64,000 nucleotides of DNA from Verrucomicrobiia bacterium (GTDB lineage Bacteria > Verrucomicrobiota > Verrucomicrobiia > Limisphaerales > JAEYXS01). The notes beneath the pieces are model-generated. The model was not told the DNA's origin and made no database searches. It saw nothing but the letters and a program-made list of their open reading frames with translations. Position 1 is the first letter of the stretch; the number at the start of each line of letters is the position of its first letter. The stretch lies in assembly GCA_036405135.1 (NCBI GenBank), contig DASWYF010000010.1, positions 1 through 64,000 of the forward strand, written 5' to 3'. Positions 22,967-46,526 of this stretch are shown here, in pieces. The translations under genes were made by a program, and so were the position numbers.

Positions 22967-24382
22967 TTTTCCCAAACTCCGTAGCGGAACTAACCTTTCG
23001 TCGTCCTCGTTTCCAATCCGTAGCAGCCGACGTCAGGAGGCTCTAACTAATCTGGTAAGGATGAGTTCCACCTCGTCCCTAACTTCTCCTTAAAGCTTTC
23101 ACAAACCTTGAGCAGAAACATGGAAACCTAAGCGACCGTAAATCGTCCTTCGTAAATCGTAAATTAATTGTCCCCTCGAAATGACCTACTGTTTGGTTTG
23201 CTCCGCCCGGCAACCCGCTCAAGGCATCCTGTGCTACGGCACTCTAGCCTCCGGCCTCAACCTCCCAAACCCAACCCTCGCCAGCCACCCCACAAAGAAA
23301 CGCAGAACCCAAATCATTGGTAGGGCGGTGGTGCTCCGCCGCCCTGACCTTTTTCGTCAAAGTCACACGATAAGCAAGACCCGCCACCCGCCGAAGCCTA
23401 ACCGCTCTCACCGCCCTCGCCCCCCTTGGGGGGAGAGGGCAGGGGTGAGGGGGCACGCACGCCAAACGTAAACAAAACGTCCAGCCACTCTCCCTCCCAC
23501 CACCATGGGCAGCCGACCTTCGGCCTCTGCATTCCCTTTAAGGAACTATGTCAAAGAGCAATGAAACCATCCGACCCCTGCGAGCTACCGTGTTCTCCCC
23601 CTCTACGATTGAGAGTTCAAATTAAGCGTGTGTTTAGTTCCCGGCCGGTTCCGCAGTGGTTACTCTGGGATTCCCCGAACCGTCATAAAATCCTACGCCG
23701 CCCGACGTCCCTTTCCCCCTCCAGCTTACGAGCCCCAATCCACACGCCCGACACACCCACAGATCCTATTCCAAACCCGGTAGGGCGGAGCTGCCGCTCC
23801 GCCGTAACTCTTTTCGCAACTGCACCACCAAGTTTAAAACAGCAGACTCGATGCAAGAGAGCTTTTCCCCCTTCTCATCTCGTCCTTGATGTTTCCATAA
23901 GGATTGCCAAATACGATTCCATTGAATCATTCAGCGGGGATTCCGGTTCTTCCTGTCCACAATTTAAAACTTAAAACTGAGAACTTAAAATTACCTCAAA
24001 CCCGTCCTTTACCGACAACGAGTTGTCAGCAATCCCACTATCCACCTTCACAACCACTCAAACCACCGAAATCTATTATCCCACAGCGACATTTCTCCCA
24101 ACCCGTTGTGAAAGAGGAAAATCCAATCGAAGATTTTCCCTTTTTCACCCAAAATCATCTCCTCAAGCTTCCTTTAAAATTTACTAAGTTAAAAATAAAC
24201 CCTATTTATCGCATCTCTAGCCTTCTTCAAATTCGTGCTAATTAGTGAAATTCGCGTCTTCTCCCTCTCCGCGTCCTCCGTGTTCCATCTATGGCTTTAA
24301 AAGTAATCCCTTGCTATCCTGTGCCTCTTGTAAATCCTATCAAAAATTCTTCCCCTATTAATCTGACATCTGCTGCAAAGTT
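22967..24382. repeat. 1.4-kb non-coding spacer filled with dispersed repeats
   Basis: No frame here looks like a protein. Recognisable pieces: AGGGCGG/CCGCCCT hairpin at 23322-23345; GGCGGAGC/GCTCCGCC hairpin near 23784-23803; a C-rich/GGGGAGAGGGC palindromic repeat at 23414-23454 (copies at 25410-25460, 29978-30016, 56805-56846); a GCAGCCGAC...TCGGCC motif near 23510 and again at 25469-25491; AACTTAAAACTGAGAACTT near 23965; and 'phrase-like' stretches such as GCTAATTAGTGAAATTCGCG near 24236 and CTCCGCGTCCTCCGTGTTCC near 24266. Such text recurs elsewhere in the window. Confidence 0.6.
23414..23454. repeat. Palindromic dispersed repeat, copy 1
   Basis: Contains CCCTCGCCCCCCTTGGGGGG followed by AGAGGGCAGGGGTGAGGGGG: a C-rich half, a short loop, and a G-rich half. 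Three further copies in this window share GGGGAGAGGGC.GGGGTGAG or its complement. REP-like and non-coding here. Confidence 0.7.
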
Positions 24383-25310: not shown

Positions 25311-25739
25311 CAGAATGTGATCGAGTGAAACCAGCCGAGACATCCGCCAGGGCGTATTCTGATACTGCCCCCAAAATGGAGTTAACTTATGAAAGTAACA
25401 CAAAGCTCCATCTCCCTCTCCTCCATCGATAGATGGAGGAGAGGGCAGGGGAGAGGAGGCACTGATCGGCAGCCGACCATCGGCCCTTCGGCCTTCGCCT
25501 TACTCTCTTTTCTTCTGCTTCTTCGGACCGATGCCCTTCGCTCCCTTCGCGCCCTTCTGTTAAACCAACTCCTCTGTTCCCTCCGTTCTCTCCTGTTCAA
25601 AATCCTCTTTCGCGTAGTTCGCGTATTTAGCGGTTACCTCTTCCCCGCAAACCGCACTTGCCAAACCTTCCCGCTACCATCTTAATCAAATTCAACAAAG
25701 AGATGCCACCGTCACGCCGAATCGAGCCGCTTGGAAACT
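25311..25739. repeat. Repeat-containing spacer inside the island
   Basis: No gene seen. Positions 25410-25460 carry a palindromic CTCCATC/GATGGAG core and GAGAGGGCAGGGGAGAGG, copy 2 of the dispersed repeat; GCAGCCGACCATCGGCCCTT (25470-25489) is a second motif also near 23510; 25560-25640 holds phrase-like text (CCTCCGTTCTCTCC..., GCGTAGTTCGCGTATTTAGC). This fits the same classes of dispersed repeats as 22967-24382. Confidence 0.55.
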
Positions 25740-28569: not shown

Positions 28570-28636
28570 TCCTGCGCGCCCCAAACCGCTCCGAAGACAT
28601 TACTCGAAACTCAAAACCAGAAACTCGAAACCGCAA

Positions 28637-28666
28637 TGAAAACTGAACACTGAAAACTTGAAACTC
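28637..28666 (+). repeat. 30-base phrase-like repeat, copy 1
   Basis: Identical over 30 bases to 30165-30194: alternating GAAAACT and GAACACT units ending GAAAACTTGAAACTC. The 45 bases before it hold looser units of the same kind (ACTCGAAACTCAAAACC). It lies between the small membrane protein and the SGNH esterase gene. Confidence 0.75.
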
Positions 28667-28733
28667 TTTCTTCCCTCCGTGGTTGATTCCCCTCTGAAAA
28701 CTTGGAACCTTCCTGTGTTCCCTGATCGCCGTT

Positions 28734-29927
28734 ATGAAATTCGCCCAAACTTTCTTTGCACTAATTGCGCTGGCTCTGACTCACTCGCTTTCCGCCGCCG
28801 AGCCCGTCACCATTTCCGTGCAATCCCCCGCCATGGTCTTCTCCCCCGGAAACTGGACTGGCGATACCGGACGTGGCGGTAACGTGTATCGTCAGACTTG
28901 GAATGCCGGCGCTTATTTCCGCGTGACCTGGGAAACCTCCGCAGACAAACCCACCGCCAAACTCTTGCTAGATACCTCCACGTATCCACCCAACTTCAAG
29001 CTCCCGCAGATCGCCTACAACATTGACGGTGTCTGGAAATCCAAGATCACCTGCACGAACGAAATCATGATTGAAGGCCTCACCGGCAAAGGCCGCCATG
29101 AACTCACCGTATATCTCCAGCAATCGCAACAACTGGAACGCTGGGGCAGCGAAGGCAAAAGCCCGCTCAATGTCCTGCGCGTGACCGGCCTTCAACTCGA
29201 TCCCGGGAGCAAACCCATCGCCGCGGCACCTGCCAAGAAATGGGCGTGGATCATCGGCGATAGTATCACCGAAGGCATCGGTGCCACCGAACTCTCCGTC
29301 TATTCCCATCTGCTCGGTCTCGCCTTGCAAACGCGCGACTTCGAGTATTGCGTCAGCGCCTGCGGTTGGAGCGGTTGGATCCATCGTGGCGATACACCGC
29401 CCGGCGATGTCCCCGCCTTCTACAACATCACCAATTCCGTGAACGGCACTGGCGGCGTGCACGACGATGCCTCCAGCCGCTGGAACAAGATTGATGGCAA
29501 CAATCACTCCTTGCTCGATGCGAAAGGCCGCATCAGCGGCTACGGAGAAAAGAATCAAGAACCCGCGCTCATCACCATCAATTACGGAACGAACGAAGCG
29601 ATCCACAAATCCAATCCTAGCGACACCAAAGCCAGCATGGTCCAGAGCCTCGCCGTCCTGCGTAAAAGCGCTCCCTCGGCCAAGATCGTCATCATCATCC
29701 CCTTTGGCCAATACTACGCCGCCGAACTCAAAGACGCCGTCGCCCTCCATCGCAAAAAACATCCGCGCGACAAATCCGTCTACATCATCGACCTCGGCCC
29801 CGGAGCTGCCAAAGGATTGGCGGAGAAAAACAGCGTCATGGGCGGCCTCCACCCCAACGACCGCGGCCACGCCATGTTCGCCTCCCAAATCATCCCCCGC
29901 GTCCTGGAAATCCTAGGCTCTCGCTAG
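28734..29927 (+). CDS. Exported SGNH/GDSL hydrolase (carbohydrate-esterase-like)
   Basis: 397 residues. Signal peptide ~1-21 (ending SLSAAE). Residues ~22-155 form a beta-rich N-terminal domain as in CE2-type esterases. The SGNH domain has block I IIGDS177ITEG, block III NYGTNEA, and block V G-G-L-H373-P-N-D-R-G. In most relatives the residue three before the His is Asp (DGLHPN or similar); here it is Gly, so the triad may be a dyad or use another acid. These enzymes remove acetyl or acyl groups from polysaccharides outside the cell. Function of the substrate class is inferred. Confidence 0.85.
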   Translation: MKFAQTFFALIALALTHSLSAAEPVTISVQSPAMVFSPGNWTGDTGRGGNVYRQTWNAGAYFRVTWETSADKPTAKLLLDTSTYPPNFKLPQIAYNIDGVWKSKITCTNEIMIEGLTGKGRHELTVYLQQSQQLERWGSEGKSPLNVLRVTGLQLDPGSKPIAAAPAKKWAWIIGDSITEGIGATELSVYSHLLGLALQTRDFEYCVSACGWSGWIHRGDTPPGDVPAFYNITNSVNGTGGVHDDASSRWNKIDGNNHSLLDAKGRISGYGEKNQEPALITINYGTNEAIHKSNPSDTKASMVQSLAVLRKSAPSAKIVIIIPFGQYYAAELKDAVALHRKKHPRDKSVYIIDLGPGAAKGLAEKNSVMGGLHPNDRGHAMFASQIIPRVLEILGSR

Positions 29928-29977
29928 AGCTTGTCATGAACTTTGGCACGTGAATAAGCAAGAGACGCGTTCATATG

Positions 29978-30016
29978 TTCTCCCTCGCCCCTTAACGGGG
30001 AGAGGGCTGGGGTGAG
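29978..30016. repeat. Palindromic dispersed repeat, copy 3
   Basis: CTCCCTCGCCCCTTAACGGG and AGAGGGCTGGGGTGAG: C-rich half, TTAA centre, G-rich half. It lies between the convergent SGNH esterase and histidine kinase genes, in a gap with no other feature than the repeat at 30165-30194. May also act as a terminator. Confidence 0.65.
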
Positions 30017-30164
30017 TCGTAGCATTAAGGCGTGCTATTTACTAACCGGGATGACAGCAGGAAAAAGCCCGGATTCACTTCGCAAAACCCTTCATTCGAT
30101 TGACCCCATTCGGTTGAAAATCTTTTCCTCCACACTCTCCGTGCCTTCGTGATTTATTTCCCAC

Positions 30165-30194
30165 TGAAAACTGAACACTGAAAACTTGAAACTC
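30165..30194 (+). repeat. 30-base phrase-like repeat, copy 2
   Basis: Identical to 28637-28666 in the same orientation, only 1.5 kb away, on both sides of the SGNH esterase gene. The end overlaps the stop codon of the kinase (30193-30195), which reads on the opposite strand. Confidence 0.75.
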
Positions 30195-32469
30195 AACTCA
30201 CCATTTTCGGAGCATCCAGCACTTCCCGCACTTTCCGCGTCAATTGCATCGGTGAAAACGGCTTCTCAATGAAGCTGAGCCCCTCTTCCAGCACTCCGTG
30301 ATGAGCCAGCGCATCATCCGTGTAACCGGACATGAGCAACACCTTCGTGCTCGGCATCCGCTTCTTGATCTGATCGTGCAATTGCTTGCCGCTCATCTGC
30401 GGCATGATGACGTCCGTCAGCACGAGATCGAACGGCGGACTATCGGCGATCAATTCCAACGCCGCCAATGCATTGTCTGACTCCTGAACATTGTAACCCG
30501 ACTCGCGCAAGATCAGCAGCGCCAATGTGCGCACGGATTCATCATCCTCCACCACCAAGATGGATTCCATGCCCGTCGCCATCGGTATCTGCTCGCCATT
30601 GGCTGTGGAATCCGCGACCGCATCCGTGCGCGGCAGATAGATTTTGAAGGCGGTGCCAAAGCCCGGTTCGCTATACACACGGATATCGCCACCGCTTTGA
30701 GTAACGATGCCGTAACATGTGGCCAACCCCAGACCCGTTCCCTTGCCCACGCCCTTCGTGGTGAAGAACGGCTCGAACAGATGCGCCTTCACCTCATTCG
30801 TCATGCCCATGCCGTTATCACAGACAGAGAGCATGATGTAGTGACCGGCTTCCAAGGTGCGATTGCGGGAGCTGGTCTTTTGATCCATCGTCACGTTCTC
30901 CGTACTGATGGTCAACTTGCCGCCGCGCGGCATGGCATCGCGCGCGTTCACCGCCAGATTCATGACCACCTGCTCGATCTGTCCACGATCCCCTCTCACA
31001 TTACCCAAGGAACGGTCAGAAGTGATGAAGAGGTTGATATCCTCGCCGATCAACCGCTGAAGCATCTTCTCCATGCCCACCACCACCTCATTGAGATTGA
31101 GGACACGCGGCTGCAAAACTTGTTTGCGGCTGAAGGTGAGCAGCTGATTCGTCAGCGCACCAGCGCGGTCGCACGCCTTCTGCATTTCTGAAATATTTTT
31201 TTGAAGCGGACTGCCTTCCAGCTTCGACAGAGTGAGCGCGCAATAGCCGCCCATCACCGTGAGCAGATTGTTGAAGTCATGCGCCACACCGCCTGCCAGA
31301 CGTCCGATCGCCTCCATCTTCTGCGCCTGACGCAATTGCTCCTCACTGCGTTGTAGCGCCTCGGCCGCACGCTTGGATTCTGTGATGTCCTGCACCGTGC
31401 CGAACATTTTGATCGCTTTGCCGCCCTCCATCACAGTTTGGGCGCGACCTTGGATCACCCGTTCCACACCATCCGGCAAAAGTACGCGGTGATCGCACAC
31501 AAAAGGTTTTCCCGTGCGCAACGATTCCGCCATCGTCACATTCACACGCTCAAGATCTTCCGGATGCACCCGCTCCATGCATATCTCCATGGATAGACCG
31601 GCGATTTCAGGAGCATGTCCGTAAAGACGCTTTGTCTCATCCGACATGGAGACGTGCCCTTTGGCGATGTCCCATTCCCAGCTTCCCATACGTGCGATCT
31701 GTTGTGCATTGGCCAATTGCGCCTCGCTCTTGCGTAATTGCTCTTCCGCTTGACGACGCTCCGCAATCTCACGCGTCAGATCAGCCGTACGGGTCGCGAC
31801 CGTTTGCTCGATCTCGTCCTTGGAAAATTCAATCTTGGCCTGCCGTTCAGCCACCAGTCTCATTTCCGTCAGACTTTTCTGGATGGCGATGACGAGGAAG
31901 GTCACTTCAAAGATCACCCAGCCTGCATGTTCGAGCGACCGCCAGATCGGCGCGTTCAACACACCGTAAACGGACTGCGGCCAGAAGATGCCGCGAGCGA
32001 GATGGTCCACATAGACGATCACCGTGGCTGATGCCAACACCTTCCAATCACGATAAAAAGCCAAGATAGCCAGGGAACCGAAGATGTGGAAGTGCGTCTC
32101 GATGCGTCCGCCCGTCAGATGGATCAGCAGCGCCGACATCAGCATCTGCCCCACCGCTACCACATGACGTGTCAACGGTTGTCCGGGTTGAAATTTTGCC
32201 AATGCCACCGGCAACACCGTGACGATGCCGCCCAAAATCAGTGCCGCCCATACATGAGGATGGATGCTGCTGTTTTCACCCGACCAGTTCGATGGCGATA
32301 TCCAGAACACCAGCAACAGGGCAAAGAACCATTGGCAGACCATCAGCTTGGCGAAGAGCAGATCCGTATGCTTGATGATGCTTTGTTGATGCTCGAAAAA
32401 CAGTTGTCCGGCACGTTGCGAAACGGCCTGCGCCAAGTCGTTCGTTCGAGAGGAGGTGGAGACGTTCAT
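30193..32469 (-). CDS. Hybrid sensor histidine kinase (membrane, PAS, HisKA, HATPase, REC)
   Basis: 758 residues from ATG 32469. About six hydrophobic helices (residues ~40-200, with LTGGRIETHFHIFGSLAILA), a coiled coil (~220-260), a PAS domain (~270-385, MGSWEWDIAKGHV to FGTVQDITESK), HisKA GGVAH397DFNNLL, HATPase with NLAVNARDAMPRG and GKGTGLGLATCYG, and a receiver with D686 (LVLTDVIMP) and K at IEKPF. It therefore phosphorelays within one protein. The ATG overlaps the stop of the RedB-like gene as ATGA, so the two are co-translated. Sensing may concern redox state (inference). Confidence 0.9.
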   Translation of the reverse strand: MNVSTSSRTNDLAQAVSQRAGQLFFEHQQSIIKHTDLLFAKLMVCQWFFALLLVFWISPSNWSGENSSIHPHVWAALILGGIVTVLPVALAKFQPGQPLTRHVVAVGQMLMSALLIHLTGGRIETHFHIFGSLAILAFYRDWKVLASATVIVYVDHLARGIFWPQSVYGVLNAPIWRSLEHAGWVIFEVTFLVIAIQKSLTEMRLVAERQAKIEFSKDEIEQTVATRTADLTREIAERRQAEEQLRKSEAQLANAQQIARMGSWEWDIAKGHVSMSDETKRLYGHAPEIAGLSMEICMERVHPEDLERVNVTMAESLRTGKPFVCDHRVLLPDGVERVIQGRAQTVMEGGKAIKMFGTVQDITESKRAAEALQRSEEQLRQAQKMEAIGRLAGGVAHDFNNLLTVMGGYCALTLSKLEGSPLQKNISEMQKACDRAGALTNQLLTFSRKQVLQPRVLNLNEVVVGMEKMLQRLIGEDINLFITSDRSLGNVRGDRGQIEQVVMNLAVNARDAMPRGGKLTISTENVTMDQKTSSRNRTLEAGHYIMLSVCDNGMGMTNEVKAHLFEPFFTTKGVGKGTGLGLATCYGIVTQSGGDIRVYSEPGFGTAFKIYLPRTDAVADSTANGEQIPMATGMESILVVEDDESVRTLALLILRESGYNVQESDNALAALELIADSPPFDLVLTDVIMPQMSGKQLHDQIKKRMPSTKVLLMSGYTDDALAHHGVLEEGLSFIEKPFSPMQLTRKVREVLDAPKMVS

Positions 32470-46389: not shown

Positions 46390-46526
46390 ATCAATGCCCA
46401 ATGACGAAATCCGAATGGCGAAGAAATGAACAAATGCCCAATGACCAATGCAGATACTTGCACTGAATGTTTGGTGCTTAGTCATTAGACATTCCTTCGT
46501 CATTCGTGCTTGGGCATTCGTCATTT
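46390..46526. repeat. Phrase-like inverted repeat between ccoP and ccoG
   Basis: The left half has AATGCCCAATGACGAAATCC and a second AAATGCCCAATGACCAATG; the right half has CTTCGTCATTCGTGC and TGGGCATTCGTCATTTA, the same words on the other strand. The whole spacer thus can fold as a loose hairpin. Text of this type is common in the spacers of several phyla (recollection). Confidence 0.65.

Follow-up and report, generated by a model that had tools for sequence, protein, structure and literature searches.

Two identical 30-base stretches stand on either side of an esterase gene in the analysed DNA (a window of 64,000 nucleotides from a Verrucomicrobiia bacterium), and their arrangement raises the question of whether they make this gene a mobile unit, as an initial annotation had suggested, or belong to something else. 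Direct reading of the window confirmed letter for letter that positions 28637-28666 and 30165-30194 hold the same 30 letters (TGAAAACTGAACACTGAAAACTTGAAACTC, here termed F1) in the same orientation. A search of the window for a 21-base core, allowing up to three mismatches, found two matches; 100 shuffles yielded none. The features concerned are the following.

28602..28631, plus strand: a further array of heptamers (ACTCGAAACTCAAAACCAGAAACTCGAAAC), immediately preceding copy 1
28637..28666, minus strand: F1 copy 1, AGTTTTCAG-type words, pointing outward from the start codon of the esterase at a distance of 67-68 nt
28734..29927, plus strand: SGNH/GDSL esterase gene between both copies (Pfam Lipase_GDSL_2, E 5.6e-13)
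30165..30194, minus strand: F1 copy 2, its outer end sharing 2 nt with the histidine-kinase stop codon, from which it reads away
30193..32469, minus strand: hybrid histidine kinase/response regulator gene, its stop codon abutting copy 2

The histidine-kinase stop codon is TGA, the complement of 30193-30195, and the last two bases of copy 2 lie inside it. The annotated position of the copies on both sides of the esterase gene is thus correct, but copy 2, at 30165, is to be assigned to the histidine-kinase gene, at whose stop codon it stands, and not to the esterase.

When three mismatches or fewer are allowed, the F1 30-mer matches the 5.8 Mb genome at 41 places; 15 of these copies are exact and 26 near, and 17 lie on one strand and 24 on the other. 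A 23-base core (AGTTTTCAGTGTTCAGTTTTCAG) has 46 matches with no more than one mismatch. The reversed 30-mer found no match in the whole genome; this control and the empty shuffles rule out a chance origin of the identical stretches. Read outward from the gene, F1 is AGTTTCAAGTTTTCAGTGTTCAGTTTTCAG and consists of 7-base words in which, for the most part, TCAGT is constant and the other two letters vary (TCAGTNN), its units being TCAGTGT, TCAGTTT and related words. One fixed order of four different heptamers is repeated at unrelated places, and the flanks are mostly not common to the copies. In a 464 kb sample (the window plus 400 kb from two contigs, about 83% coding), intergenic DNA holds nine arrays at lag 7 compared with 0.2 in shuffles, the other lags from 4 to 15 giving 0 to 2, and coding DNA holds one lag-7 array in 387 kb. 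Fourteen word families sought in this sample gave 35 matches, every one intergenic, with four families finding no match; the words therefore stand between genes. The letters TTTTCAGTTTTCAG were not found in the literature searched, which was one limited collection, and Rfam at gathering scores returned tRNAs only.

Two congeners carry the F1 core 0 and 1 times, compared with 46 here, at a distance of about 75-80% DNA identity and with one genome compared per species, and 7 of 57 other genomes searched hold any F1 core. These counts are most simply explained by a recent increase of the exact repeat in this lineage. They also bear on local slippage, by which tandem repeats would arise independently at each place and to which we give next to no credence. 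Pure TCAGTTT runs in other genomes do resemble slippage products; for F1 in this genome, the process is refuted by the fixed heptamer order shared by exact and near copies at unrelated places and by the near absence of the repeat from the congeners.

The placement of F1 relative to genes was determined for 30 listed loci of the 41 matches, two of which have no called gene on the 5' side; genes were called by a small model trained on the same genome, and start codons are uncertain. Among these loci, the 5' neighbour presents its stop codon to F1 in 16 of 28 cases and its start codon in 12. Where both neighbours were called, 21 of the 25 listed copies lie nearer the 5' gene and read away from it, and four lie nearer the other gene, against this outward rule. 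Contact with stop codons is close: 13 of the 16 listed stop-side copies begin between -3 and +4 nt from the stop, compared with 0 of 12 on the opposite side, which places the words at gene ends. In 8 of the 16, the stop codon straddles the junction between gene and F1 (T followed by GA, AA or AG of the word), and the first letters of the word complete TGA at four loci, TAA at two and TAG at two. Listed start-side copies stand 2 to 784 nt from the start codon with no fixed spacing. GAGTTTC is present in 11 of the 12 start-side copies, and these letters are therefore probably part of the F1 word. Four proteins ending at F1 are complete as judged by their family profiles: RecR extends to the last profile position, AroB to position 341 of 344, PhnW to 367 of 369 and a CckA-like kinase to 868 of 868. 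Truncation of genes by the word is rejected for these four proteins, whose profiles run to or near their ends; four further proteins scanned gave no full-length profile.

Against this background, we consider it highly improbable that the direct copies mobilise the flanked esterase gene by homologous recombination, as the initial annotation had proposed. The copies are identical and direct, and the esterase ortholog lies elsewhere in both congeners, as such exchange would allow; yet these orthologs stand in other surroundings with no F1 in the flanks examined, and F1 copies at most 1.6 kb apart form two pairs in the genome against 0.57 expected (P=0.11), so that close pairs are not significantly in excess and the closeness of the two copies round the esterase is compatible with chance. 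A length of 30 bp is, moreover, short for homologous exchange. Since the two copies stand at the edges of different genes, the esterase does not make up a cassette: the copies sit in two different spacers, and their flanking of one gene is incidental. Repeats that bound one gene and travel with it were not found at the esterase, and the locus warns that a repeat touching a gene end need not make that gene a mobile cassette.

The other word-like stretches noticed in the window (46390-46526, 23957-23990, 24220-24290 and 25535-25606) are real as well. The first belongs to a second large family, F2 (AATGACGAATGACNAANNCCGAATGACGAAGG), with units AATGACN, and comprises two arms.

46394..46432, plus strand: F2 arm built of AATGAC-type heptamers, pointing away from a start codon that lies 21 nt off
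46483..46524, minus strand: second arm of the F2 pair, facing the one at 46394..46432, with a stop codon 3 nt off

F2 occurs 103 times in this genome; the congeners carry 37 and 6 copies and three further relatives 2, 18 and 0, and the control found none. Its placement was analysed in a set combining the unbiased 464 kb sample with 47 further loci, 14 of which were chosen for showing pairs. Of 89 copies, 88 are intergenic; 72 of 86 obey the outward rule by lying nearer the 5' gene, and 14 lie nearer the other gene. Stop-side distances fall between -15 and +19 in 34 of 43 arms, compared with 3 of 31 on the other side, and in 14 of the 43 the stop codon of the gene lies inside or overlaps the F2 word, from which three proteins derive the C-terminus NDE and one NDK. 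TGA runs away from the gene in F2 and toward it in F1, and stop codons alone therefore cannot explain the common polarity. Two families follow one rule, reading outward from the gene and starting at its stop codon, despite differing words and stop-codon directions. Polarity is thereby separated from the stop codons in the words, which yields an exact and testable prediction for how such repeats arrive.

F2 arms no more than 300 bp apart are arranged head-on in 24 cases, back to back in none and in tandem in seven, some of the loci having been chosen for pairs; the share of paired arms is therefore inflated, whereas the pair orientation is not affected. Among the matches listed, all 19 opposite-strand F2 pairs within 300 bp are head-on, as counted by eye. 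TCAGTNN arrays behave likewise: contigs of other genomes contain 18 head-on and 3 tandem pairs, viral contigs 14 and 5, and neither set has any back to back. Seventeen F2 pairs evaluated as hairpins gave a mean z of -6.4, the pair at 46394..46432 and 46483..46524 folding with z -4.0. An inverted F1-like partner within 400 nt accompanies only 2 of 33 F1 copies. The two-armed form is thus established for F2 and for TCAGTNN arrays elsewhere, and not for F1 here. The expectation that the arms of one F2 pair match each other was tried and rejected, the opposite being seen: likeness within 18 pairs was 0.369, compared with 0.502 in shuffled pairings (P 0.0005). Perfect long palindromes are unstable, and this instability is perhaps the cause of the mismatch between arms. 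Whether an F2 arm stands on a start side or a stop side is related to its type as a trend only.

Intergenic location, inverted pairs and hairpins are also features of REPINs, and the genome holds eight Y1_Tnp matches, so we considered whether F1 and F2 are REP/REPIN-type elements moved by its Y1 transposases (RAYTs). An F2 arm does lie within about 0.2 kb of one RAYT locus among the six inspected in this genome, and across all 12 inspected RAYT loci F2 is near that one and gives a weak match at one congener locus. F1, which is not palindromic, stands at none of the 12, and the inspected transposase genes are flanked by ordinary GC-rich palindromes, which makes this origin very unlikely. At one locus (L035, G000:C20:85880-86600), two inverted copies of the palindromic family GGCGAGGCGTCAAGCCGCCTCGGGCGG enclose a Y1 transposase-like gene (86076-86360), the arrangement expected of a REP/RAYT pair.

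The stretch at 23957-23990 lies in a larger element.

23170..24150, minus strand: candidate dispersed structured RNA of about 1 kb, with conserved blocks at 23224-23292, 23540-23770 and 23890-24031
23961..23990, plus strand: heptamer array (TTAAAAC) in a variable spacer of this element

Two of the conserved blocks fold on the minus strand with RNAalifold z of -9.9 and -12.5 relative to shuffled columns. In the middle block, 13 of 52 pairs are changed on both sides in an alignment of 25 copies, taken from 40 listed coordinates some of whose remainder are duplicates. Searches with a covariance model of this block found 34 copies in the genome and, in the two congeners, 10 and 25; 22 genomes from other genera of the same order gave no match. 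Rfam holds no credible match for the element. Twelve of the 46 F1 copies stand in variable spacers of other copies of this RNA candidate and read away from a conserved block. The stretches at 24220-24290 and 25535-25606 share about 80% identity with other loci of the same genome. Further phrase families were seen at 28602-28631 (GAAACTCGAAACTCAAAACC), 24227-24290 (TTCGTGCTAATTAGTGAAATTCGCG) and 25560-25640 (CTCCGTTCTCTCCTGTTC), with units apparently of 7 and 9 bases, and phrases like these also stand beside other F1 copies of the genome. At 25399-25465 and 29966-30016 there are two families of GC-rich dispersed hairpins (CCCTCTCC with GGAGAGGG and GGGGTGAGG); both have many matches in both congeners, and the first also occurs inside copies of the RNA element.

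Beyond these species, a search for the heptamer pattern, with one position allowed to be G or T, found it in GTDB contigs of many phyla, the matches listed including Planctomycetota, Acidobacteria, Bacteroidetes, Chloroflexi, Poribacteria, Verrucomicrobia and Proteobacteria, and in 54 viral stretches. Nine genomes reached via such loci hold 2 to 144 core matches at up to one mismatch, the control giving 0 in all; part of these matches are plain TCAGTTT runs, which slippage could make. In 100 arrays from GTDB contigs, a stop ending 300 open bases falls within -4 to 5 on the outer side in 23 cases and on the inner side in six, all six being the TGA of the word itself, and an ATG falls within -5 to 15 in 22 cases, compared with four on the other side. 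In viral contigs, open frames end within -4 to 5 on the inner side more often than on the outer (28 versus 12), against our reading; 23 of these 28 inner-side stops are the word's own TGA. The viral arrays are found chiefly on the start-codon side. In viral contigs L206, L171, L214 and L193, CTGAAAACTGAAMACTGAAAACT words precede the ATG of several genes of one contig by about 5-20 nt, and it is possible that these words are leader elements.

A possible, though not probable, alternative is that the words act in regulation at the RNA level. They would bind S1-, Csp- or CsrA-like proteins, serve as unstructured leaders in place of a Shine-Dalgarno sequence, which has been proposed for TAACTGA repeats, or stabilise 3' ends behind stop codons. 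The position of CTGAAAACTGAAMACTGAAAACT arrays before ATGs in many viral contigs agrees with this, as does the one-sided distribution of viral arrays, 32 of 72 having an ATG within -5 to 15 on the expected side and none on the other, and F2 pairs form strong hairpins. The available text on TAACTGA repeats in Beggiatoaceae gives the same position (PMC4679880). In contrast, regulatory leaders sit poorly with the variable spacing of the listed start-side F1 copies, with congeners that have no or one F1, and with the dozen F1 copies found in spacers of a noncoding element.

On the basis of these results, we favour, with some reserve, the view that F1 is a small non-autonomous dispersed heptamer repeat that multiplied recently and is tolerated at gene ends. 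F1 would be one end of a small noncoding dispersed repeat of variable heptamers, whose copying would rely on trans-acting machinery or on template switching. The repeat may land anywhere and survive only where no coding sequence is broken; a site right at a gene's end would suit it best, as the junction or the word itself can supply the stop codon. F1 copies that stand alone would be forms with one arm or decayed ones. Counting against this explanation, no target duplication was seen at F1 copies, and no insertion event was caught in a comparison spanning one genome per species with congeners at about 75-80% DNA identity. The exact F2 23-mer was found in only one of 386 other genomes of a phylum sample, which also counts against this reading. 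Contact with stop codons is also more exact than mere tolerance predicts, which leaves room for targeting or a role in mRNA; this exactness hints at targeting or function.

A further reading, which we regard as doubtful, would make polar, heptamer-built, face-to-face elements one class across many bacterial lineages and viruses, standing at the exact edges of coding or structured-RNA modules and supplying stop codons, with placement targeted through an end-joining or copying process guided by gene ends and not merely tolerated. Intergenic heptamer repeats of bacteria have long been on record, though neither what they do nor how they spread is known.

Several such systems resemble F1 and F2. 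The REP/REPIN elements with RAYT transposases are described, in the available text, as small, noncoding, intergenic, dispersed and arranged in inverted pairs (PMC3116915). F1 differs from them in having no palindromic core and in its absence from the inspected RAYT genes. The small dispersed repeats (SDR) of Nostoc are very short dispersed repeats that multiplied, and F1 is likened to them, by general description only, as equally short, dispersed and multiplied. These repeats are named in the available part of PMC3116915. Closer are the short tandemly repeated repetitive (STRR) sequences of cyanobacteria, which are described as usually 7 bp, with hairpin potential and unknown function, in the accessible portion of PMC2670836. 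F1 and F2 share with STRRs the heptamer arrays, and F2 pairs share the hairpin, which F1 with its rare partners seldom could form; in contrast, the heptamers are others, and stop-codon contact is absent from the STRR description compared.

The TAACTGA repeats are intergenic direct repeats of tandem copies of one heptamer (MacGregor 2015, PMC4679880). As far as the available text describes them, most point toward start codons, and the largest group ends 1 nt upstream; they carry stops in all three frames and are patchily distributed over phyla (PMC4679880). Their reverse complement, TCAGTTA, is a TCAGTNN word like those of F1; F1 and F2 also consist of 7-nt tandem units in intergenic DNA, and the direction toward start codons, as that text gives it, matches the orientation rule found here. 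F1 and F2 differ in having units other than TAACTGA/TCAGTTA. In F1, different heptamers in one fixed order are copied together as a unit, with many copies behind stop codons, and F2 has face-to-face arms and keeps its polarity with stop codons facing the other way. The start sides obey the TAACTGA orientation rule, yet more than half of the listed F1 copies (16/28) are on stop sides and the start distances vary. With the same style and other words, F1 and F2 are a variant rather than a member of the TAACTGA repeats. Because heptamer identity, RAYT association and cassette structure were tested and each proved lacking, F1 and F2 are a new form within the known heptamer class, whose closest described representatives are the TAACTGA heptamer repeats and the cyanobacterial STRRs.
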